Below are positions 7,672 to 33,763 of a stretch of DNA of 36,424 nucleotides, one piece after another. The notes below the pieces were generated by a model. It ran no database searches. It was not told the DNA's origin and saw only the letters and a program-made list of their open reading frames with translations. The position numbers and the translations under genes are program-made. Within the stretch, counting starts at the first letter, position 1. Every line of letters begins with the position of its first letter. The stretch covers positions 1 through 36,424 of the forward strand of contig NCRB01000028.1 of the NCBI GenBank assembly GCA_002894665.1, in the 5' to 3' direction. This stretch comes from Salinivenus iranica (GTDB lineage: Bacteria; Bacteroidota; Rhodothermia; Rhodothermales; Salinibacteraceae).

Positions 7672-9303
7672 ATGACGACCCGTACTTGCTCCCGCAAGGG
7701 CGCCGGCTCGATCCGTATGCTGTGGATCGCCCCGCTTCTTGTGTTCGCCGCCCTGCTGTGGGCGCCCCTCGCCGTCGCCCAGGACCCGGTGGCCCCAACC
7801 ATTCCACAGTCGGAGATTGAAATCCGGCGCGGCGCCGACATCGTGCAGCCCCCCACCGTCTTCTACAAGCGCGTCAACGCCGGCCAGTCCTTCGACGACG
7901 TGGCCGACGAGTCCCTCGGCGTGCTCCGCATCCCGCGTCCCTCGGACCTCGACGCCATCCAGTACACCGACCGCAGCCGCGGCTTTGCGGTGAACCTGCA
8001 GCACGCCATGATTGTGGCCGACGGCCAGATCGTGGACGTGCAGGTGAGCGACCGGGCGGCCCGCGGAGCGGCCGCTGCCTCCGCCGTGGCCCACGAACTG
8101 CTCATCATTCGCCCGCCCGCCGACGACGCCTTCGACGTGACGGTGCCGGACGGCCTGGAGTGTGCCCGGCTGGAGCCCGGCTCCGACGAGGACCGCGGAT
8201 CGCGCGGCCGCCTCTTTGACGACCGCCCCTGCAAGCAGGTCCGCGGCGTAGAGACGGTTGTGGACGTCGCGTCCTGGTACGACGTGTCTCTCACGAACAG
8301 CCTCTCGGGCATCCGCACGGCGGCCGGCTCGTCCCACAACGCCCGCGAGCTGCGCGGATGGCTGCGCAGCCTGGCCCCCGGCGGCGAGCAGGTTCGCTTC
8401 GTGCTCGTGGCGACGGGGCCGACCGTCGAGCGCCCTACCATAGTTACCACGCGCCGCGACACCACCATCCTCGGCCCCACGCTCGCAACCATTGACGGTG
8501 AGTTCCGGATCAATCGGGTTTCCACCTCCGGGTTCGAGTGGATTACGACGGCGGCCGCCCTCGGCGGGCCCAACCGCAGCGACCTGCCCGGCCTCGCGGC
8601 CCCTCGGTACCAGGCCACTCGCCTCAAGGGCGACCTCACCACCACGGTGCGGTGGAACGCGACCCCCGAGCAGCGCTACGAGCTAAGTCTGTTTGGCAGC
8701 ACGCAGCCCACGTTCTCCTCACAGGACGTGGGCGACCACCACGACGTGCCCTACGGCGCAAGCGTGGCCGCCCGCTTCGGCACCCCCCAAAAGGTCGGCG
8801 TGGAGCTCCGGCTCGAAGGGAGCTACGAGGACGACCCGTTCCAGCGGAACACCCTGGCGAGCGGCGACCAGCGCGTTCGTTTCCTGCTCGGCCTGGACCG
8901 CGGATCCCTCATCACGGGCCGCACCCACTGGCGCCTGAGCGCCGGCCCCACGTACTTCGTGGACCGAAACGGCATCTGGGAAACCCGCAGCACGGCCCGC
9001 CAACTCGGGTACACCGTCGACGGCGTCTTTAGCCGCGTGGTCCGCACCCGCATCCCGACCCTCCTTACCGTGGGCGGGGGCGTCAACCAGTCGTGGGGCT
9101 ACGTGCAGGACAGCGGCAACACCAACCTGTCGCTGGCCGGCCGCCTGAGCGCCAAGCCGCGCCTGAACATCGGCGGCACGATGGTGGCCCTCGGCCCAGT
9201 CGTGTACCTGAGCCACACCGACAGCGACTACGCGGAGGGTGCCGACTTTACGGAGAACAACGCGCAGTTTGGGGTCGAGCTGATGACCTGGGTTACGTTC
9301 TAA
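7672..9303 (+). CDS. Exported protein of unknown function, probable outer-membrane beta-barrel
   Basis: I do not recognise the family. The ATG at 7672 gives a clean signal peptide (IRMLWIAPLLVFAALLWAPL, then AVAQ cleavage region) and a 543-residue protein; the frame is open further upstream, but without a signal at the front. Residues of roughly 30-230 look like a soluble periplasmic domain with two cysteines (ECARLE and RPCKQV) that could form a disulfide. From about residue 310 the sequence alternates polar and hydrophobic residues in strand-length blocks with Gly/Asn/Asp turns. It ends in WVTF, the terminal aromatic residue typical of outer-membrane barrels recognised by BAM. A hairpin terminator follows about 50 bp after the stop. 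The barrel is inferred from pattern, not from homology. Confidence 0.7.
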   Translation: MTTRTCSRKGAGSIRMLWIAPLLVFAALLWAPLAVAQDPVAPTIPQSEIEIRRGADIVQPPTVFYKRVNAGQSFDDVADESLGVLRIPRPSDLDAIQYTDRSRGFAVNLQHAMIVADGQIVDVQVSDRAARGAAAASAVAHELLIIRPPADDAFDVTVPDGLECARLEPGSDEDRGSRGRLFDDRPCKQVRGVETVVDVASWYDVSLTNSLSGIRTAAGSSHNARELRGWLRSLAPGGEQVRFVLVATGPTVERPTIVTTRRDTTILGPTLATIDGEFRINRVSTSGFEWITTAAALGGPNRSDLPGLAAPRYQATRLKGDLTTTVRWNATPEQRYELSLFGSTQPTFSSQDVGDHHDVPYGASVAARFGTPQKVGVELRLEGSYEDDPFQRNTLASGDQRVRFLLGLDRGSLITGRTHWRLSAGPTYFVDRNGIWETRSTARQLGYTVDGVFSRVVRTRIPTLLTVGGGVNQSWGYVQDSGNTNLSLAGRLSAKPRLNIGGTMVALGPVVYLSHTDSDYAEGADFTENNAQFGVELMTWVTF

Positions 9304-9354
9304 CGCGCCCCTGCTCCGCTCGGCGCCTCCTCCACCATTGCCTCCATCCAGCGA

Positions 9355-9387
9355 GCCGTCTTCTCACGAGGACGGCCCGTTTTTTTT
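9355..9387 (+). terminator. Rho-independent terminator
   Basis: GCCGTC (9355-9360) and GACGGC (9371-9376) form a 6-bp GC-rich stem over a 10-nt loop, followed three bases later by eight consecutive T (9380-9387). It lies 52 bp after the stop of the barrel-protein gene on the same strand. Confidence 0.85.
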
Positions 9388-9490
9388 GATTTGCCTTCCC
9401 GTGTGTATCGGACGCCCCCAACCAGCATGCCCTGCCTCCCGCCGGTCGCTCGACAGGACCGGCATCGGACGGGGAGCGGCTCGCCCCTTT

Positions 9491-9555
9491 GAATCTGTGT
9501 CGCCTCGACCGGAGGGCCGCCGGCGAGCGGCCCGGAGCGGAGAGGCCTCTCCGGA
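9491..9555. repeat. 65-bp interspersed hairpin repeat, copy 1
   Basis: Aligns without gaps to 10102-10166, differing at only about a dozen of 65 positions. The centre is GGAGGGCCGC, a short loop, then GCGGCCCG. This gives a 7-bp perfect stem (GGGCCGC/GCGGCCC). The flanks GAATC at the left and CCGGA at the right are shared by both copies. No ORF is carried. It looks like a REP-type non-autonomous intergenic repeat. Confidence 0.75.
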
Positions 9556-9607
9556 ACCGGCGCCTACGGTTGGTTCCGAAAGGCCTGTAGAGATGTCTCG
9601 GGCGTCC

Positions 9608-9712
9608 CTACAGGACCACGAGCGCACCGACGAAGAGAATGAGGAAGAAGGCCATGAAGTAGTCGTCGAAGTTCGATGCGTCGTGCGAGCGGAGGGAGTA
9701 GGACGCCTGCAT
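9608..9712 (-). CDS. 34-residue single-pass membrane protein
   Basis: A small ORF not reported by usual length cut-offs. From ATG (9712-9710) to TAG (9610-9608) it encodes 34 residues. The first 18 are polar and acidic (MQASYSLRSHDASNFDDY). The last 16 are a hydrophobic segment, FMAFFLILFVGALVVL, ending at the C-terminus, so it should be a tail-type single membrane helix. Third codon positions are G or C in all but three of 34 codons, matching the genes around it, which argues for real coding rather than chance. It is preceded on the minus strand by a structured leader (9752-9835) and overlaps at its stop with a 7-bp hairpin arm (CCTGTAG 9584-9590 with CTACAGG 9608-9614). I do not recognise the family. 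Size and layout resemble tiny accessory subunits of membrane complexes, but that is only an analogy. Confidence 0.55.
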   Translation of the reverse strand: MQASYSLRSHDASNFDDYFMAFFLILFVGALVVL

Positions 9713-9751
9713 GGTCGGATCGGGCGGATCAATGAGAAAGTTCGAGAGGCA

Positions 9752-9835
9752 GAGGGGCCTCGCGGAAACGCCGAAAACGCCCCTCGTCCTGTGTCCGGGG
9801 GCTTAGACCCCCGATCCGCGGGTTCGATTCGGGGG
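9752..9835 (-). other. Structured segment upstream of the small membrane protein
   Basis: GAGGGGC (9752-9758) pairs with GCCCCTC (9779-9785). CGGGGG (9796-9801) pairs with CCCCCG (9808-9813) over a 6-nt loop. CCCCCGA (9808-9814) can pair instead with TCGGGGG (9829-9835). The second and third pairings compete for the same strand, as in an attenuator or riboswitch-like switch. On the minus strand this would be the 5' leader of the 34-residue ORF, 40 bases before its start. No known RNA family is recognised. Confidence 0.35.
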
Positions 9836-10101
9836 ATGCGATGGGCCGGGGGCTGCACGCGACGAATGGCCGGACGGGGGCGACGAGGAGGGCTGAGACA
9901 AACCGGCCGGGCGCGCAGCGGGCCCTCGTCGTGAATAAACGCGTCGGGACGACCGGTGACCACGGCGAGACGGGTCGGAGGGAAGGTCCCTCCTCCACGT
10001 CAGCATTCCCCCAATTGATTTTGGCACGCCCGAGGAGATGTCTCGACTCGGTTCCCTCGCTCGACACGACCTGTAACGAACGAAAGAAGACCCTCCCTTC
10101 C

Positions 10102-10166
10102 GAATCCACGTCGTCTCGACCGGAGGGCCGCGGGAGAGCGGCCCGACGTGGAGAGACCTCCCCGGA
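10102..10166. repeat. 65-bp interspersed hairpin repeat, copy 2
   Basis: Second copy of the element at 9491-9555, same orientation and same length. It keeps the GGGCCGC/GCGGCCC stem. In this copy the outer arms CCACGTC and GACGTGG also pair, which extends the hairpin. It lies just after the 3' end of the AsmA gene, which ends at 10180 on the minus strand, so it could form a hairpin in that transcript's tail. Confidence 0.75.
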
Positions 10167-10179
10167 CCCGGCAGGCCGA

Positions 10180-13173
10180 TTAGTTGCCGCCGCCCGGCAG
10201 CAGGTTGCGGAGGCGCCCCAGGCCCTCCTCCTTCGCCAGCGCGCGCAGCCGCTCCTGAATCGCATCGCGATTGCCCACCGACACCGAGGGCTCCCGAATC
10301 GTGCCCCCGATGCCCACCTTCACCGGCACCGTCTCGCTGCCCGCCTCGCCCCCGGCCAGCTTCTTCACGAGGCCCGCGAGGGTGCCGTCGCCCCCGCCCG
10401 CCAGGCCCGGAATCTTCGAGTTCTGCAGCCGCGACAGCGGCAGGTTGAGCGTGAGGGCGAGGTCGACACTGCCGCCGAGCCCCAGCTGCCCGCCCACCTC
10501 GCCACTAAACTGCGCCCCCCCGATCGACCACGTCTCCATCTCGATCTGGCCGTTTTGAATGGAGAACGGTCCCCCGAAGCGCCGAAAATCGGTCAGGGAC
10601 GAGAGGTCGAGGCCGAGCGCATTGGTGAGGGCGTTCGCGAGCCCGGACTCCGCGACCAGTCCGCCGTCGGCCACGAGGGACGTGCCGGTGGCCGAGAAGG
10701 CATCGAGCTGCGGCAGGAAGCCCTCGCTGAGGGGCGTGTCCCCGTCAATCGTCAGGTCGAGCGTGCCGTCCACGATGCGGCCGATGGTGGTCCAGTCTTC
10801 GAGAAAGGCGCCCGCCCGCGCCCCGCTGAGGGTGACGTCGTAGTCGAGCGCGAGGGCCTGGGCCTGGGGAACAGCCGCCGCCCCGGCACTGGCCATCAGC
10901 ACCGAGGAGCTCCCCCGCCGGGCCGACGTGGACGCGGTCCCGCGCTGATCGAGCGTCACCGACCCGGCCAGCGTGCCCTCGTAGGTCGTGCCCTTCAGGT
11001 TTTGGAGCTGGAGGCGACGGTCGTCCATCGTCACGTCGAACGCCAGGTCGTCGATGCGCTGCGGGTCGTTGCGAAAGGTGCCGATCTCCACGCGCCCGTC
11101 CACCGCGTAGGGCGGAATCTCCGTCCCGCCGTAGAGCGCCTCCGCCACCGCCTCGGGGTCCTGCCCCTCCACCTGGCTCCCCGAGAGCGACGCCGCAAAG
11201 AGCTGCGAGTAGTACACGTCCGTCTCCTCCGCCTCGGGATAGAGCTCGACAAGGTCGAGGCGGTCGGCCATGAGCGCAAACGTGGCCGACAGGGCCGGGT
11301 CCGTCTCCGCCAGTCCCTCCGACGTCGGAAAGAGATTCCGGGCCGTCGCCTCTAGCTCCATCGTCTGTTCGCCCGTCCGGAGCGAGAAGCGGTCCATCGA
11401 CAGGCCCGTGCCGGTCAGCTCGACGGTCGCCTCGGAAATCTCGATTGGGGCGCGGAACGACTCGTAGGGATACCGGACGTCGGCCAGGTCGACGGTGCCG
11501 GTCGGGCGGAGGGCGTTCGGATCGGCGAGCGGCCCCGAAAAGCCCACGTCGTAGGTGGCCCGCCCCTCCACGCCGCTCGTGTCGTCCACCATCGACGCCA
11601 AGCGACCCAGGTCTGCACCGCCCGCCAGGCGCCCCTTCACCTGCGCATCGCCCATTGGCTCCCGGATCGTCACCTCGCCCGAAAGCGGCTCCTCGAAGAG
11701 CTGCCCGTCAATCGACGCGACGGTGACGGCCGTTTCGGAAAAGGACAGGTCGGCCCCCAGGTCGTGCAGCAGCGCCGCGCCGTCATAGTCGAGCCCCAGC
11801 CCGGCCAGCTGCCCAGTGCCGTCGTAGGTGAGCGCGCCCAGCGGGTCCTCGTCCCCCAGCGGCCCCGCCGCGGCCACGTCGAGGCGCAGGGTGCCGCGCG
11901 GATTGTAGGCGTCGGCCTCGCCCTCCGGCGCAAGGGCCGCGAGGGTGGCCAGGTTGAGCGCCCCCGTAGTGACTGTAAGGTCGAGCGCCGGCGTGTCGCG
12001 CAGGTTCTGCACGGCCGCGTGCCCGGCGAGGGACGCGTCGAGGAGGGTGCCCTCCACGTTGCGGACGGCCGCCGAGTCGAGCGAAAGCGCCAGGTCGGCC
12101 GTGAGGTTACGGACGAGGGCCGTGCCCTGGTAGTCGGCCCCGAACTCCGTGAGCCGCCCGGTGCCGTCGACCCGCAGGGAATCCGTAGCGCCGGTGCTGT
12201 CCGGGAGCGGGCCGGCAATCGTCGCGTTTAGCGAGAGGGCGCCGCGCGGGTTCAGCCCCTCCACCGCCGCGGCCGGCACGAAGCCCGCAATCTCCGCCAG
12301 GTCGGTGTCCCCGGTTTCCACCGAAAGGTCGACCGCAGGCCGCGTGTTGAGGTGCGTGAGGGCCCCGGCGGCCGTGAGCGAGAGGGGCGCCGTCGTGAGG
12401 TCGAGCGCGTGCACGTCGATCCGCCCCTCCGCCAGCGCCGCCCGCACATCGTAGGTGAGCGACGCGTCCTGCACGGCCAGCGTGTCGGCGCGCACGCCGG
12501 GGAGCAGGGCGCGCACCGTCTGGAGGTCCACCGTGCCCGTGCTCGCAATTGCGTCGCCATCCGGCCCCGCGCTCATCCGGGCGTCGAAGCCGAGGCGGGC
12601 GGCCTGCCCCGTGCTCTGATCGTCGTAGTGCAGCTGGGCGTCGGTCACGCGCACGTCGGACAGTGGGATGCCGCCGAGGGGCGGGCCGTCCGCCTCCGCC
12701 TCGGTCGTGTCCGCCGGGCCGCCGAGCGTGTCGAAGTTGGTGACGCCGTCCGCGGCCACCGTGTAGCGGACGCGCAGGCCGTCGAACCCCACGGCGGTCG
12801 GCTCGATGCGGCCGGTGACCAGGGGCCAGAGCGCCACGTCGACGCTCAGGGTGCGGGCCGCCACGGCGGGCTGGGGGCCAAACCGCTCGTCGTTGGCGAG
12901 GCGGAAGCCGGAGACGCGCACGGCGGGCGTCCAGAGCACCTGCAGGCCAATGTCGTCAATCTCGACGGTGCGGCCGGTGGCCTCCTCCAGCGGCGGCACG
13001 ACGTAGCCCTTCAGCTGCTCGGACGTAAAGAGGCGCGGCAGCACGAGCGCGGCGACGAGGACCAGGACGGCGAGCCCCCCGAGCAGGCTGCCGCCCCAGA
13101 TCGCGAGGCGGGTGCGGAGGGGACGAGCGGCGGAGGCGTCCGCCTCTGGGGCATCGGACGGGACATCGGACAT
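10180..13173 (-). CDS. AsmA-family inner-membrane/periplasmic protein
   Basis: A 997-residue AsmA-like protein; the family is linked to envelope biogenesis and bridging lipid transport between membranes. The start at 13173 is chosen because MSDVPSDAPE leads straight into the cytoplasmic tail and the single N-terminal helix (about residues 23-47). An upstream ATG at 13311 would add 46 unrelated residues. Residues 48-90 (FTSEQLKG, then TGRTVEIDDIGL) are the classic AsmA N-terminus. The long middle is beta-rich. Two adjacent repeats begin NPRG at residues 308 and 424, sharing AGPL, DGTG, DY-G-AL and ADL positions. The end, with IPGLAGGG and VKVGIGGTIREPSVSVG, is the typical AsmA C-terminal block. 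It is divergent from the metalloprotease gene. The exact cargo is unknown. Confidence 0.88.
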   Translation of the reverse strand: MSDVPSDAPEADASAARPLRTRLAIWGGSLLGGLAVLVLVAALVLPRLFTSEQLKGYVVPPLEEATGRTVEIDDIGLQVLWTPAVRVSGFRLANDERFGPQPAVAARTLSVDVALWPLVTGRIEPTAVGFDGLRVRYTVAADGVTNFDTLGGPADTTEAEADGPPLGGIPLSDVRVTDAQLHYDDQSTGQAARLGFDARMSAGPDGDAIASTGTVDLQTVRALLPGVRADTLAVQDASLTYDVRAALAEGRIDVHALDLTTAPLSLTAAGALTHLNTRPAVDLSVETGDTDLAEIAGFVPAAAVEGLNPRGALSLNATIAGPLPDSTGATDSLRVDGTGRLTEFGADYQGTALVRNLTADLALSLDSAAVRNVEGTLLDASLAGHAAVQNLRDTPALDLTVTTGALNLATLAALAPEGEADAYNPRGTLRLDVAAAGPLGDEDPLGALTYDGTGQLAGLGLDYDGAALLHDLGADLSFSETAVTVASIDGQLFEEPLSGEVTIREPMGDAQVKGRLAGGADLGRLASMVDDTSGVEGRATYDVGFSGPLADPNALRPTGTVDLADVRYPYESFRAPIEISEATVELTGTGLSMDRFSLRTGEQTMELEATARNLFPTSEGLAETDPALSATFALMADRLDLVELYPEAEETDVYYSQLFAASLSGSQVEGQDPEAVAEALYGGTEIPPYAVDGRVEIGTFRNDPQRIDDLAFDVTMDDRRLQLQNLKGTTYEGTLAGSVTLDQRGTASTSARRGSSSVLMASAGAAAVPQAQALALDYDVTLSGARAGAFLEDWTTIGRIVDGTLDLTIDGDTPLSEGFLPQLDAFSATGTSLVADGGLVAESGLANALTNALGLDLSSLTDFRRFGGPFSIQNGQIEMETWSIGGAQFSGEVGGQLGLGGSVDLALTLNLPLSRLQNSKIPGLAGGGDGTLAGLVKKLAGGEAGSETVPVKVGIGGTIREPSVSVGNRDAIQERLRALAKEEGLGRLRNLLPGGGN

Positions 13174-18852: not shown

Positions 18853-21837
18853 ATGCCCAGCTACACGTTCGAAAAACTCGACGACTACCGCTGGCAGATC
18901 CCAAAGCAGGGCGGCATGCGCGTCCCGGCCCGCCTCTACGCCAGCGAGTCCATGCTGGACGACATTCGGTCCGACGACGCGCCCCAGCAAGCCATCAACG
19001 TGGCCCACATGCCCGGCATCGTGGGCGCCTCGCTCGCCATGCCCGATATCCACTGGGGCTACGGCTTTCCGATCGGCGGCGTCGCCGCGTTCGACCCCGA
19101 CGACGGTGTGATCTCGCCGGGCGGGGTCGGCTACGACATCAACTGCCTCTCGGGCGATAGCGAGCTCCTTCATGCGCACGGCTACACGCGTTCGATTGCG
19201 GAGATGGAATCGACGTGGCCGGACGACGTGCTCCACTGCCACGACCTTGAGGCCCCATCGAGCGACGAGACGTCCATTGCCGCGTACCTGAAGCACCGTC
19301 CCAACCAACCGGTGTATCGCCTCCGCACCACCGGGGGCGACGCGGTCCTGGCCACTGGCGACCACCCGTTCTGGACGCCCGACGGCATGACCAATCTCGG
19401 CGACCTGGCACCGGGCGACCGGATCGCTCGCCACCCGTTCGAGGGCGTGTCCTACGAGGAGCCGTCCGACCGCGTCCTTGTCAGCGAGGCCGATATCCGC
19501 GACGTGCTGGCGGAGCAGGAGAAGGACACCGCCGGGAATGCCGTGGGGCAAGTCCTTCGGTATCTCCGAGGGCGGGACCTCCTTCCGCTCCGGGCGTCCG
19601 ACCCTACGGTGCCCCAGCTCATCAAAATCGCCGGTTTCCTCTTCGGGGACGGGACGCTCTACTTCAGCGGCGACCGGGGGAAGGGAACGGCCTGGTTCTA
19701 CGCCGAACCCGATGACCTGGAGGCGATTCGCACCGACGTGGAAGCGGCCGGCTTCACGCCGTCCCGCATCTACCAGCGTTCCCGCGAACACAGCATCGAC
19801 ACGCCCTACGACCACCACGACTTCGAACGGACGGAGACCTCGTTCAAGGTGGTGAGCACCTCCTTCGCCGCCCTCATGTCGGCACTGGGCGTACCGGTCG
19901 GCGACAAGGCGGCACAGGACTACTCGGTCCCGCCTTGGCTTCACGACGCCCCCCGATGGCACCAGCGTCTCTTCCTGGCTTCCTTCTTCGGGGCGGAGCT
20001 GTCGGCCCCGTCGACGATGACCAACCACGGCCGCACCTTCTACGCCCCGACCCTCTCCCTGAGCAAGCGGACTCAATGGGCCGAAAGCGGACGGCAGTTC
20101 CTCGAGGACCTGGCCTCTGTGATCGAGGCGTTCGGCGTAGAGGCGAAGGCCATCACTGAAGTTGCTCCAGAGAACAGCCCCGACGGTCGGGTGCGGCTTC
20201 GGTTGATGCTCTCATCGCGAACGGACTCGCTGCTCGCTCTCTGGAGCCGGATCGGGTACGCGTACAACCAGAAGCGGTCGTCCCTCGCGATGGCGGCCGT
20301 CGAGTACCTGAAGCAAAAACAGCGGGTTCTCCTCCAGCGCCGGACCGCCGACGAGCAGGCACAGGCCCGATACGCATCGGGCACGGCCCCGTCCGACATT
20401 TACGACGACCTGACCGGCGAGCACGTCAACCGCCGGTTCTTAGAGCGCTCACTGTACGAAACGCGCGACACCGACGTCCGCATCGGATCCTCGTTTCCAA
20501 CGTTCGACACGTTTTGCGAAAACGCGCTCGACGGATTGGGGCAAAGCGGGGTGGTCTGGTCGACGGTCGACTCGATTGAACCCGTCGACCTGGAGGCCGA
20601 AACCGGCGACCCGCACGTGTACGACTTCACCGTCAAGCATGAGGACCACAACTTCGTCGCCGACGGCTTCGTCGTCTCCAACTGCGGCGTGCGGCTGATG
20701 GCGTCGAAGCTCACGAAAGACGACCTCGACCGGCAGGATCAGGAGCGCCTCGTGGATGCCCTCTTCCACCGCGTGCCCACCGGCGTGGGCTCCTCCGGCG
20801 CCCTCCGCGTGGACGCCTCCACGCTCCCGCACGTGCTGCGAAAGGGTGCGCCCTGGGCCGTACAGCAGGGCTACGGCTCCGACGCCGACCTCGACGTGAT
20901 TGAGGAGGGCGGGCAGGTCGACGGCGCCGACCCGGACGCGGTGTCGGGCCGGGCGCGGGAGCGGGGGCTCGACCAGATCGGCACGCTCGGCTCCGGCAAC
21001 CACTTCCTGGAGGTGGGCTACGTCGCCAACATTTACGACGAGCGGGCCGCCCGCGTGATGGGGCTCGACGAGGGCACCGTCACCGCCATCATCCACTCTG
21101 GCAGCCGCGGCTTTGGGTACCAGGTGTGCGACGATGCGCTGCAGGACATGGACCGGGCCATGAACACGTACAACATCGAGCTGCCCGACCGCCAGCTCGC
21201 CTGCACGCCCATCGACTCACCGGAGGGACAGAAATACATCCGCGGGATGCGGTGCGCCATCAACTACGCCTTCGCCAACCGGCAGGTGATGGCCCACAAC
21301 ACGCGTCTCGCCTTCGAGAACGCGCTCGACCTGACGCCCCGCGAGCACGGCCTGCGGACGGTGTACGAGGTGGCGCACAACATCGCGAAGTTCGAGCAGC
21401 ACCGGGTGGACGGGCGCACCCAGGAGGTGTGCGTGCACCGCAAGGGCGCGACGCGGGCCCTGCCGGCGGGCCATCCCCTCGTGCCGGGCCGCTACCAGAA
21501 GGTGGGCCAGCCGGTGCTCATCCCCGGTGACATGGGCCGCTACTCCTACGTCCTGGTGGGCACCGACCGGGCGATGGAGGAAACGTTCGGCAGCACGTGC
21601 CACGGCGCCGGGCGCAAGATGAGCCGCCGTCAGGCCCGCAAGACGGCCGGCCACCGCAACGTGACCGCGGAGCTGGCCAACGAGGGGATCATCGTACGAG
21701 GCGAGAGCGGTCGGACGGTCCGGGAGGAGATTCCGGAGGCCTACAAGGACGTGGCCGACGTGGTGGAGGCCGTGGAGGGCGCTGGGATTTCGAAGCGGGT
21801 GGCCCGCCTCCGTCCCCTCGGCGTCATCAAGGGATAG
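18853..21837 (+). CDS. rtcB: RtcB RNA ligase precursor with in-frame intein
   Basis: Mn- and GTP-dependent ligase that joins 2',3'-cyclic phosphate (or 3'-phosphate) to 5'-OH RNA ends, used in RNA repair or tRNA splicing. The precursor has 994 residues; removing residues 98-610 leaves a normal 481-residue RtcB. The active site is complete in the spliced numbering: Asp95 and Cys98 (GYDIN then CGVR), His204 in SGNHFLE, His235 in IHSGSRG, His329 in VAHNIAK, and the guanylylated His404 in CHGAGRKMSR. The spliced C-terminus PLGVIKG is typical. The start at 18853 fits the family. Archease, its known activator, is encoded upstream. Because the intein separates Asp95 from Cys98, the unspliced precursor cannot form the metal site. 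Confidence 0.96.
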   Translation: MPSYTFEKLDDYRWQIPKQGGMRVPARLYASESMLDDIRSDDAPQQAINVAHMPGIVGASLAMPDIHWGYGFPIGGVAAFDPDDGVISPGGVGYDINCLSGDSELLHAHGYTRSIAEMESTWPDDVLHCHDLEAPSSDETSIAAYLKHRPNQPVYRLRTTGGDAVLATGDHPFWTPDGMTNLGDLAPGDRIARHPFEGVSYEEPSDRVLVSEADIRDVLAEQEKDTAGNAVGQVLRYLRGRDLLPLRASDPTVPQLIKIAGFLFGDGTLYFSGDRGKGTAWFYAEPDDLEAIRTDVEAAGFTPSRIYQRSREHSIDTPYDHHDFERTETSFKVVSTSFAALMSALGVPVGDKAAQDYSVPPWLHDAPRWHQRLFLASFFGAELSAPSTMTNHGRTFYAPTLSLSKRTQWAESGRQFLEDLASVIEAFGVEAKAITEVAPENSPDGRVRLRLMLSSRTDSLLALWSRIGYAYNQKRSSLAMAAVEYLKQKQRVLLQRRTADEQAQARYASGTAPSDIYDDLTGEHVNRRFLERSLYETRDTDVRIGSSFPTFDTFCENALDGLGQSGVVWSTVDSIEPVDLEAETGDPHVYDFTVKHEDHNFVADGFVVSNCGVRLMASKLTKDDLDRQDQERLVDALFHRVPTGVGSSGALRVDASTLPHVLRKGAPWAVQQGYGSDADLDVIEEGGQVDGADPDAVSGRARERGLDQIGTLGSGNHFLEVGYVANIYDERAARVMGLDEGTVTAIIHSGSRGFGYQVCDDALQDMDRAMNTYNIELPDRQLACTPIDSPEGQKYIRGMRCAINYAFANRQVMAHNTRLAFENALDLTPREHGLRTVYEVAHNIAKFEQHRVDGRTQEVCVHRKGATRALPAGHPLVPGRYQKVGQPVLIPGDMGRYSYVLVGTDRAMEETFGSTCHGAGRKMSRRQARKTAGHRNVTAELANEGIIVRGESGRTVREEIPEAYKDVADVVEAVEGAGISKRVARLRPLGVIKG
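19144..20682 (+). other. RtcB intein with LAGLIDADG homing endonuclease domain
   Basis: A 513-residue protein-splicing element occupying precursor residues 98-610. It begins with Cys98 (CLSGDSELL, splicing block A). Block B is TGDH at 168-171, giving the conserved Thr and His. The C-terminal blocks are VYDFTVKHEDHNFVADG followed by VVSN, and then Cys611 as the +1 residue of the extein. The penultimate residue is Ser609 rather than the usual His. The insert carries two LAGLIDADG-like motifs, IAGFLFGDG (259-267, Asp266) and LASFFGAEL (375-383, Glu382), about 116 residues apart. That is right for a monomeric DOD homing endonuclease, and both acidic residues are kept. An intein at this RtcB position is known in Pyrococcus horikoshii. 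Confidence 0.95.
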
Positions 21838-31476: not shown

Positions 31477-33153
31477 TCACACCGGCGAGGGCGGGGCCCC
31501 CGGAGAAAAGAGGCCGTCCATGACCATATCGACCAGCGGTAGCGTGTAAGCCAGCAGCACTAGCACAATTGCAACCCCGACCCAGAGCTTCATGTTGTCC
31601 AGAATCTTCGGCGAGTGCTCGGCTCCGCTCAACGGTGCCGGCAGCGTGTCGTCAATATTGGCCGCCGTCTCGTCGGCCCGGCTCCAGTTGGCCACCACCA
31701 CGACCAGGAACATGACGAGGGAAATGAACAGGATGGTGCCGCCCACGGCCACCTGCCACTGCATCTCATCTACGGTACCGAAGGGAGGATCGTAATCGAC
31801 GAGTCGATACATCGGCTCCGCCACGCGCCGCGGGATGCCAGCCAGGCCGGCGCGGTGCAGGGCGTTGGACATCAACGTCATGCCAATGAACCACATGTAG
31901 GGCTGCGCCAAGGCCAGCTTGTCGTATTTGAGGGTGCGCCCGGTCAGTTGCGGCAACAGCCAGTACGTGATGGCCATGAACGTGAGGGCCGACGCCGTAC
32001 CCACCGTGAGGTGAAAGTGGCCCGGGATCCAAGCGGTATTGTGGATGAGCATATCGATGTTCAGCGACGCGTTGACCATGCCGCTAAACCCGCCCGCAGC
32101 GAACATGATGCCGGCAAGGGCACAGCCCACAAAGGCAGGCCGGTTCCAGGGCAACGCCCCCATCCAGGCAAAGTAGCCCGATCCACCGCGCTGACGCGCC
32201 CCGTGCTCCATGCTGGAAATGACAGTAAAAGCCGTCATGAGACTGGGCAGCAGAATGAGGAGCGTCGAAATGACGGCCCACAGCTTGTACCCCAGGTCGA
32301 TCCCCGGATCGGCGTACTGATGGTGAAAGCCGATGGGCGTGGACAACAGCAGAAACATGATAAACACGATTCGGGTCAGCGAATCGCTGAAGAGCCGGCC
32401 TCCGGAGAGCTTCGGCAGGATGGAGTACCAGACGAAGTAGGCCGGCAGCAGCCAGAAATAGACCACTGCGTGCCCGAAGTACCAGAAGAGCGTACGGGGT
32501 AGCAGCGGGTCAATGTTTGTCACCAGCCCCAGCGACCAGGGGATGAGGAGCACCACGACCTCGAGCGCCACCCCGAGGGAGGAGATGTACCACATGAGCA
32601 TCGTGAAGAGCACCATGTAGGTCTGCAGGGGGATGCTCTCGTCGGCGTTGTTCTCGCGCCATTTCCAGAAGGACCAGAACCAATCGGCGGCAGCCATCCA
32701 GGATCCGACCACCAGCCCCGCGGCACCGATATAGAAGAGCGGATGGGCCTGCAGCGGCGGATAGAAGGTGTAGAGCACCGCCGCACTGATCTCGCTGCCC
32801 GGAATGAGGCCGCCGACAATCGCAATGGTCGTAAGCGTCGTGCCAACTGTCATCACCCAGAACCAGGTCCAGGTGAACGTCATGTTCTCTGGCTCCCGAT
32901 CAAGGCTTCGGGAGATGCCCCACTGGTAAAGCCCCACGATAAAGAACGTGGTGAACACCAGGGCGAGCAGCACGCCGTGGCCCGTAAGCACGTCGTAGTA
33001 CTGGGTCGACGAAATAATGCCCCGGACGGTATCGGTACGGTGCAGAGCCTGAAGAAGGCCGCCGAAGCCACCGAGGCCCAGGGCCGTAAAGGCGACAAGG
33101 AAAGCCGCCTTAATGACACGCGTTGCTTTCGGGTAGTGGTCAACAAACGTCAT
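31477..33153 (-). CDS. cbaA: ba3-type (B-family) cytochrome c oxidase subunit I
   Basis: Membrane-embedded catalytic subunit of a terminal oxidase that reduces oxygen to water and pumps protons. 558 residues with about 13 hydrophobic helices. The metal ligands are complete: His59 and His381 for the low-spin haem, His379 for the high-spin haem, His228, His277 and His278 for CuB, with Tyr232 four residues after His228 for the cross-link (FGHAVVYFW, GFHHQY, PGHFH). Recalled Thermus thermophilus ba3 positions (233, 237, 282, 283, 384, 386) differ by a constant five, showing close B-type structure. It follows subunit II by 76 bp on the same strand. Confidence 0.95.
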   Translation of the reverse strand: MTFVDHYPKATRVIKAAFLVAFTALGLGGFGGLLQALHRTDTVRGIISSTQYYDVLTGHGVLLALVFTTFFIVGLYQWGISRSLDREPENMTFTWTWFWVMTVGTTLTTIAIVGGLIPGSEISAAVLYTFYPPLQAHPLFYIGAAGLVVGSWMAAADWFWSFWKWRENNADESIPLQTYMVLFTMLMWYISSLGVALEVVVLLIPWSLGLVTNIDPLLPRTLFWYFGHAVVYFWLLPAYFVWYSILPKLSGGRLFSDSLTRIVFIMFLLLSTPIGFHHQYADPGIDLGYKLWAVISTLLILLPSLMTAFTVISSMEHGARQRGGSGYFAWMGALPWNRPAFVGCALAGIMFAAGGFSGMVNASLNIDMLIHNTAWIPGHFHLTVGTASALTFMAITYWLLPQLTGRTLKYDKLALAQPYMWFIGMTLMSNALHRAGLAGIPRRVAEPMYRLVDYDPPFGTVDEMQWQVAVGGTILFISLVMFLVVVVANWSRADETAANIDDTLPAPLSGAEHSPKILDNMKLWVGVAIVLVLLAYTLPLVDMVMDGLFSPGAPPSPV

Positions 33154-33229: not shown

Positions 33230-33763
33230 TCAGGCATCCGCATCGACGAGGGTGCTCTCATCAAACTCGTCTTTCGGAACCACCTTGATCTGTCCCTGCA
33301 TCGAGTGATGAGCGGCCCCGCAGTACTCGTGGCAGATGAGACCGTACGTGCCCGTTTCGGGAAAGATGGTTGTAAACGTGGCCACCTGGCCGGGGATGGC
33401 CATAGAGTTGATGTTGGTCCCCACTACTTCGAGCCCGTGAATAACATCCGGACTCGTCAGGTGAAAGGTGACCCGAGTGTCGGCCGGCAGCTCCAGTGCG
33501 CCCCCAGTGCTCGGCTGAAAGAGAAACTTGCGGGCCACCATGTAGACCTCGTATTCGGCCCGTCCGTCTTCGACCTTTCGTACCCCGGGATCGGCAAACG
33601 GCGTCTCGGTCAGGTTCATCGGGTCAACCGTCTTGCCCGAAGGATCGCCGCCCGGCACCTTCAGATCCAACACCGTGAAGCCAAACATCACGATGCCAAT
33701 GAAGCACGCGATCAAAAAGAGAGACAGGCCGATCCAGAGTTTTTCGAACCGGTGTATATGCAT
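33230..33763 (-). CDS. cbaB: ba3-type cytochrome c oxidase subunit II (CuA)
   Basis: 177 residues: one N-terminal membrane helix (about residues 9-32) and a periplasmic cupredoxin domain that accepts electrons at the dinuclear CuA site. Ligands: His109 (DVIHGLEV), Cys144, Glu146, Cys148, His152 and Met155 in CHEYCGAAHHSM. It has the compact single-helix layout of B-type oxidases, unlike the two-helix A-type subunit II, and no fused cytochrome c. An external donor is therefore needed, which fits the HiPIP and cupredoxin genes upstream. It precedes subunit I by 76 bp. The 215 bp upstream, separating it from the IIa gene, show no gene. Confidence 0.95.
   Translation of the reverse strand: MHIHRFEKLWIGLSLFLIACFIGIVMFGFTVLDLKVPGGDPSGKTVDPMNLTETPFADPGVRKVEDGRAEYEVYMVARKFLFQPSTGGALELPADTRVTFHLTSPDVIHGLEVVGTNINSMAIPGQVATFTTIFPETGTYGLICHEYCGAAHHSMQGQIKVVPKDEFDESTLVDADA

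Follow-up and report, generated by a model that had tools for sequence, protein, structure and literature searches.

Introduction

A close described counterpart of the protein reported here is AcrZ, the modulator of the AcrAB-TolC system of Escherichia coli, a single-helix inner-membrane protein of 49 residues that is controlled by MarA, SoxS and Rob and for which Pfam holds a model. Chromosomal type I toxins are likewise small and hydrophobic, with isolated genes that occur in several copies over a narrow range and are held in check by an antisense RNA antitoxin. Subunit IIa of the ba3 oxidase (CbaD/CoxIIa) is another protein of about 34 residues with one helix; in the consulted part of PMC3128077 its gene is described as lying directly upstream of that for subunit II and its sequence as mostly carrying a PX1-3G(T/A) motif. 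Whether the MacB-type pumps have microprotein modulators is left open in the consulted parts of a review of MacB (PMC5985334).

Here we describe a 34-residue protein encoded in a contig of Salinivenus iranica (NCRB01000028.1), the whole analysed stretch of 36,424 nucleotides being referred to as the window and its genome as G000. As with AcrZ, the protein is very small and is predicted to sit in the inner membrane as a single helix, modelled here from residue 5 to residue 33, and the 13 members of its family, at 34–48 residues, stay within the 50 residues expected of such proteins. As with AcrZ too, control would be shared with an export-type system, to judge from the promoter sequence. In contrast to AcrZ, the control appears to be of the ECF type and the putatively co-regulated permeases are of the MacB/FtsX rather than the RND type, and none of the 13 members matched the Pfam AcrZ model at E up to 10, which gives no sign of homology. 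The product represents a new microprotein family, met with to date in a single genus; its general kind, the stress-controlled small membrane protein with one helix, is already known.

The small gene and its product

The minus-strand frame at 9608–9712 runs over 34 codons from an ATG at 9712–9710 to a TAG at 9610–9608 and encodes MQASYSLRSHDASNFDDYFMAFFLILFVGALVVL, which contains neither proline nor tryptophan. An earlier note, made from the letters of the DNA alone, had proposed an overlooked membrane protein at this place, and the list of open reading frames contains the frame and confirms that its last 16 residues are hydrophobic. These residues, encoded by 9611–9658 (minus strand), presumably form a single transmembrane helix and are directly preceded by the juxtamembrane motif DASNFDDY (codons at 9659–9682, minus strand), of which DASNFDD is invariant in all 13 aligned members. 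The note had spoken of a polar/acidic N-terminal half followed by a hydrophobic tail; the tail stands, while the N-terminal part is more aptly seen as starting basic or mixed and turning acidic in the motif beside the membrane. An AlphaFold2 model from the single sequence shows one helix from residue 5 to residue 33 with a mean pLDDT of 87.9 and a pTM of 0.47 and, having been run without an alignment, says only that a helix is plausible.

As the note had stated, the GC content at third codon positions resembles that of real genes, at 0.91 against 0.87–0.93 in the long neighbouring frames. A 178-codon frame at 9729–10265, which overlaps the upstream region of the small gene, has a value of 0.72 and is taken as spurious. 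The isolated position was also described correctly, with the small gene standing alone between a plus-strand frame that ends at 9303 and a minus-strand frame, which we take to be AsmA-like, with its 3′ end at 10180. No obvious Shine-Dalgarno sequence precedes the small gene, which fits the absence of such sequences from Bacteroidetes mRNAs described in the consulted part of PMC7366714.

The gene is flanked by two direct repeats of 116 nt, 75% alike, at 9446–9561 and 10057–10172. A 63-nt probe taken from them gave 33 matches in the genome of the window (E up to 1) and neither copy is present at the matching place in G001, so the repeats look like interspersed elements inserted on both sides of the small gene. 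Elsewhere in the window the plus strand at 18853–21837 holds a frame of 994 residues (..DINCLSGDSELL.. to ..VVSNCGVRLM..), presumably an RtcB RNA ligase interrupted by an intein-like insertion; a shorter frame of 516 residues in G006 (L047, 526–2076) resembles it.

Members of the family and their distribution

A first search of 60 genomes, that of the window included, found an orthologue of 68% identity in G001, further genomes of the genus giving weaker matches. Each true match starts with ATG and carries DASNFDD followed by tyrosine or phenylalanine, then 16 or 20 hydrophobic residues in a row and a stop codon, and matches in G013, G053 and G002 that departed from this pattern were dropped. 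A profile of the 13 members found these in nine of the 13 genomes of the genus with E values from 1.7e-18 to 9.3e-16; a 14th match in the genus (E 0.625) lies inside a long frame and was dropped. In all 13 members the hydrophobic run directly follows DASNFDD[YF] and ends the protein, and the frame in the window has this motif directly before its 16 hydrophobic C-terminal residues. A degenerate DNA pattern for DASNFDD[YF] matched 13 times in the 13 genomes, each time in a family member, and the reversed pattern did not match at all. The frame is conserved among the relatives without internal stops, and since the ATG, frame, motif and stop are kept in 13 of 13 members, the window copy included, chance is indeed an unlikely origin, as the note had argued.

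Beyond the genus, 101 further genomes of the order gave no convincing match (114 searched in all). Two genomes of the order outside the nine owners gave matches with E about 0.05 that were not accepted, and within the taxonomic family, searched at E up to 10, the further matches all had E of 0.6 or worse. A scan of named genomes, in which five of 21 pattern stretches were accepted, placed the family in Salinivenus lutea (two loci), Salinibacter altiplanensis, a Salinivenus MAG and an uncultured Bacteroidetes MAG. The genomes of the genus that have no member are G010 (99% complete), G009 and G012 (83% each) and G002 (62%). Owners occur in each deep group of a tree of the SMC protein from 12 genomes (G002 was left out and G008 entered as a partial protein), and for this reason loss in G010 is likelier than late gain.

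The statement that no known family matches was upheld. Pfam gave nothing convincing for the 13 members, the best match being to a phage holin model (E 0.13, two of 13 members); NCBIfam gave no convincing match for the family members, and the best values in PHROG (E 0.054) and among PDB sequences (E 1.7) were not convincing either. The idea of a holin or other phage protein was set aside, there being no convincing match in PHROG, no match in phages searched with the window protein and no relative in IMG/VR, where none of 50 motif stretches encodes one. A search of plasmids with one of the locus D members likewise gave no match. We found no paper on the motif, and the family is not reported in the parts we consulted of the literature on Salinibacter small proteins, ECF factors and transcriptomes, on PG0214 and EcfO, on AcrZ and on Bacteroides small proteins.

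The members fall into five loci, A (the window and G001), B (G000, G001 and G008), C (G003 and G011), D (G003, G004, G007 and G011) and E (G005 and G006), among which no common neighbours were recognised. Conservation at the same locus, suggested as a check, holds for G001; at the corresponding place in other genomes, nine loci read up to 1.5 kb past the AsmA-like match (one of them a fragment) contain no family frame, and the remaining members lie elsewhere. The neighbours of B in G008 differ from those in G000 and G001, yet leader and frame align. In G007 the divergent neighbour gene is absent and the leader is still conserved, which assigns this leader to the small gene. At locus C, G003 and G011 diverge abruptly soon after the small gene (L041 versus L040), and the break looks as if a deletion had taken out a transporter gene in G011.

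The window also holds frames of 558 residues (31477–33153) and 177 residues (33230–33763) which we take to be oxidase-like. The small protein might belong to a constitutive membrane complex, respiratory or other, for example as subunit IIa of the ba3 oxidase, and 34 residues is the size of that subunit in Thermus according to the consulted part of PMC3128077. The small gene, however, lies more than 20 kb from the oxidase-like frames, its product lacks proline and has no match to the CoxIIa model of Pfam, copies occur at five loci and one 99% complete genome has no family member. Neither gene position nor motif nor family match agrees with subunit IIa, and this reading, which we regard as most improbable, is largely refuted.

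Selection and divergence

Change in the coding sequence is biased towards synonymous sites. At locus D, dN/dS is 0.07–0.22 in five orthologous pairs with dS of 0.19–0.71; it is 0.13 at locus E, 0.22–0.23 across species at locus B and 0.31 at locus A between the window copy and its orthologue in G001. The check by dN/dS that the note had called for therefore came out in favour of the gene, all informative orthologous pairs being below 1. The pairs G000/G001 at B and G003/G011 at C and D have almost no synonymous change and are uninformative. Ratios between loci reach 1.5 (A versus B); owing to codon bias or saturation they cannot be interpreted. At locus E the frame aligns throughout and the flanks have no clear similarity, and stop codons differ among members at the same place.

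That the frame might be a chance one in DNA that is conserved yet untranslated gains some colour from locus A, where the upstream 100 nt are more conserved between G000 and G001 than the frame is, so that conserved DNA at this one locus proves nothing by itself. Against this stand the synonymous bias at D, E and B, the frame kept across saturated synonymous divergence, the differing stop codons at the same place and the dissimilar flanks at E. The comparison shows the family to be under purifying selection at the sequence level; a chance frame is exceedingly improbable, being refuted at the level of comparative evidence, and the small frame almost certainly encodes a real protein.

The A copies of G000 and G001 are 68% identical with a dS of 0.52, while eight neighbouring or nearby genes are 95–99% identical with a dS of 0.05–0.21. 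Of the last 100 aligned nucleotides before the ATG, 93 (93%) are equal in the two genomes. The diverged coding part of the A copy possibly reflects recombination with a diverged allele.

The upstream promoter module

Any exact 5-mer followed by a spacer and a 4-mer common to six leaders (A, B, C, D and two of E) was sought in a de novo two-block search. The single best pair, GAATC-N16/17-GGTC, is present in four of the six leaders, a number reached in none of 200 dinucleotide-shuffled sets, 37 of which reached three. We take this pair to resemble the boxes of ECF sigma factor promoters. In the window, the -35-like box GAATC lies at 9826–9830 and the -10-like box GGTCTAA at 9803–9809, both on the minus strand, and with the start placed by the -10 box the predicted 5′ leader would span 9713–9796 (minus strand).

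Inspection by eye of loci A, C, D and E revealed pairs of YTYRTCG-like repeats exactly 21 bp apart that end 8 nt before the -35 box. In the window they are TTCGTCG at 9860–9866 and, 21 bp away, CCCATCG at 9839–9845, which has one mismatch to YTYRTCG, both on the minus strand within a module match at 9826–9866; eight of the 10 repeat pairs have one such mismatch. The full module, with two YTYRTCG-like repeats 21 bp apart, GAATC or GGACC, a spacer of 16–17 nt and RGTCNRA, is present in 10 of the 13 members, locus C having GGACC instead of GAATC at -35. The three members at locus B are without the repeats, and what remains in them is a looser CAACC-N16/17-GTCNRA.

Taken without the repeats, the boxes are not specific, because the pattern GAATCN{17,18}GTCNRA matched 79 times in four genomes, four of the matches being family sites, and 48 of the 74 inspected non-family matches lie inside long frames by a rough test. 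No shared regulon was recognised among these 74 (of 75, G005:C135 being left out).

The note had also claimed RNA structure upstream, and this did not survive: the presumed leader at 9693–9796 shows no excess folding against 200 shuffles (z -0.23), 79 of which fold as well. Exact and near-exact k-mers in the leaders gave no clear gain over shuffled sequences, and a consensus RNA structure across loci is unsupported, with alifold energies of -0.9 and 0.0 for sets of 9 and 12 rows; energies for single loci were -19.5 to -53.8, without a control. An Rfam search of 9200–10400 returned three matches, all far under the gathering scores. The conserved upstream signal is better read as DNA, a promoter, than as RNA, and on the sequence evidence ECF-type control of the microprotein gene is likely.

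Genes that share the module

The repeats together with the -35 box, one mismatch allowed, matched at 133 places in the 13 genomes, the 10 family sites included, against 13 for the reversed control; the count can be inflated by codon bias and many of the matches look coding. Twenty of the 133 places were inspected, picked by eye for GCATC-like -35 boxes or for recurrence, and 14 of these have regulon genes. The other six (L258, L265–L269), which were coding, unclear or single cases, do not enter the counts. Because the places were picked by eye and the other matches are known as strings, 30 of them also as scanned short loci (L220–L249), the numbers of genomes given for each regulon gene are lower bounds from a set that is not random.

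With distances counted from the last base of the -35 box to the first plausible start codon, the module lies 21–93 nt before a lipoprotein gene (CEPYMS..) in at least nine genomes and 86–239 nt before a permease gene in at least nine. The genomes with lipoprotein and permease sites are G003, G004, G005, G006, G007, G008, G010, G011 and G012; four of the 18 sites, those of the lipoprotein in G004 and G007 and of the permease in G008 and G010, were found by a looser pattern only. The permease of G003 has the Pfam domains MacB_PCD and FtsX and is followed by a second such permease and then by an OEP outer-membrane efflux protein, and in G010 a second permease-like frame follows the module-bearing one. 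The module also stands before the gene of a 172-residue lipoprotein in G000 and before a similar gene in G001.

The lipoproteins of the CEPYMS type have about 394–447 residues and a conserved CEPYMS[LM]TD.. sequence (L250, L253, L256, L257, L260–L264). Those of G003 and G008 (L250 and L256) had no Pfam match, and L250 had no NCBIfam match. G010, where the DASNFDD family is absent, has a 46-residue frame immediately ahead of the lipoprotein promoter (L253, reverse complement, 1367–1507). This frame begins with charged residues and carries a hydrophobic run at its C-terminus, and no module was found before it.

The repeats and -35 box also precede a gene for an ECF sigma factor in at least three genomes, G006, G008 and G010, although in G008 the contig ends within the gene. 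In Pfam, the G010 and G006 sigma factors match Sigma70_r2 and Sigma70_r4; against the model of the PG0214/GFO_1088 family (NF058625, cut-off 130 bits) they score 133.5 and 121.4 bits, respectively, the latter under the cut-off. We know of no description, for this family, of a repeat pair with 21-bp spacing ahead of the -35 box. Such repeats are not mentioned in the portions of PMC7366714 and PMC12596196 consulted. In G010 a protein of 87 residues overlaps the end of the sigma gene, with a match to zf-HC2 just above the cut-off and one to RseA_N below it; no anti-sigma-like protein was seen after the sigma gene in G006.

A promoter module held in common with a sigma factor gene would also suit a feedback element, with the microprotein adjusting the response by binding either the sigma factor or its anti-sigma factor at the membrane. 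By eye the 87-residue anti-sigma-like protein of G010 shows no obvious membrane segment, and it might therefore profit from a separate anchor in the membrane. But no sequence link to sigma or anti-sigma proteins was seen in Pfam, NCBIfam, PHROG or PDB sequences, and the regulon genes persist in G010 and G012, which have no microprotein; we consider feedback unlikely.

A 64-bp matrix built from 23 sites at genes other than the small gene gave scores of 7.8–38.0 bits to 10 of the 13 family leaders, the window site having 32.5. Among 455,930 background positions, from both strands of 80 loci and the window, only the site of the window itself fell in this range, the next being 6.8 bits; the three B leaders fail, at -8.6 to -27.1 bits. 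The test is partly circular, as the sites were found with a pattern derived from the DASNFDD family, and the independent part of the link between family and regulon, as read from the sequences, is the recurrence of sites before the same genes in up to nine genomes. With five family sites included in the matrix, 33 distinct sites, its own training sites among them, exceeded 23 bits, and the next best of 2.0 million positions (overlaps counted) had 17.4. The 33 comprise 10 family, nine lipoprotein, eight distinct permease and three sigma factor sites, two of the 172-residue type and one before a secreted-looking frame in G005. This last site (L258, minus strand from about 2958) scores 27.6 bits, has GAATC at -35 and precedes a frame of about 229–255 residues.

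The genome of the window has seven matches to the module, of which those before the small gene and the 172-residue lipoprotein gene were recognised, with no sigma factor or permease gene located; the other five are known as strings only, and two of them, scanned as short loci, score below 2 bits. A module-bearing family copy occurs together with the module before both lipoprotein and permease genes in G003, G004, G005, G006, G007 and G011. Since G010 and G012 retain lipoprotein and permease sites without a family member, the microprotein is not required for the regulon.

The regulon also bears on a type I toxin, a small hydrophobic peptide silenced by an antisense RNA or by leader structure and encoded by dispersed chromosomal copies. 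The family resembles such toxins in its size, hydrophobic tail, isolation, one to two copies per genome at different loci and narrow range, and, to judge from where the promoters lie, the 10 members with the module have leaders of about 65–150 nt. It differs from them in that the invariant part is the polar DASNFDD and not the hydrophobic stretch, in its ECF-type promoter and in a window leader that folds no better than shuffled sequence; a module common to an ECF sigma gene and an export-type operon is more readily expected of a stress effector. A toxin is therefore an improbable reading.

Discussion

The small gene at 9608–9712 probably encodes a translated single-pass membrane microprotein that acts as an effector in an ECF sigma factor regulon, of the envelope-stress type, of Salinibacter and Salinivenus, as far as comparison of the genomes can tell. 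The earlier note was right about the gene; the family and the promoter module were not seen in it.

In the mechanism that we propose, an ECF sigma factor would transcribe the gene under stress, the short and mostly basic N-terminus would stay in the cytoplasm and the hydrophobic tail would insert into the membrane as a helix. Orientation follows from basic residues by the positive-inside rule, and as these precede the motif and the C-terminus is uncharged, an N-in, C-out arrangement is suggested. The tail would serve mainly as an anchor, and DASNFDD, at the inner face of the membrane, may bind a conserved partner; because the tail residues vary while DASNFDD is invariant, the polar motif is probably the working part.

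The likeliest class of partner would be a membrane complex of the same regulon, for instance the MacB-type permease, much as AcrZ modulates AcrB. As a direct partner this permease is the leading candidate, but a tentative and rather doubtful one. A fuller proposal, in which the protein would be a dedicated modulator of a MacB-type (type VII ABC) exporter, the ECF sigma promoters would need an activator that binds the repeats and the promoter and frame would form a cassette of about 260 bp at varying chromosomal places, is more speculative still and on balance unlikely.

What was a bare 34-codon frame can be tested as a gene, now that its family, the motif that all members keep, its promoter and its likely companions in a regulon have been described. 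Of more interest than the gene itself are this promoter and regulon: a predicted ECF regulon of halophiles with a distinctive promoter, marked by two 7-bp repeats 21 bp apart, would show when the microprotein is made. Were the link to the MacB-type permease true, it would be evidence that such pumps too have microprotein modulators.
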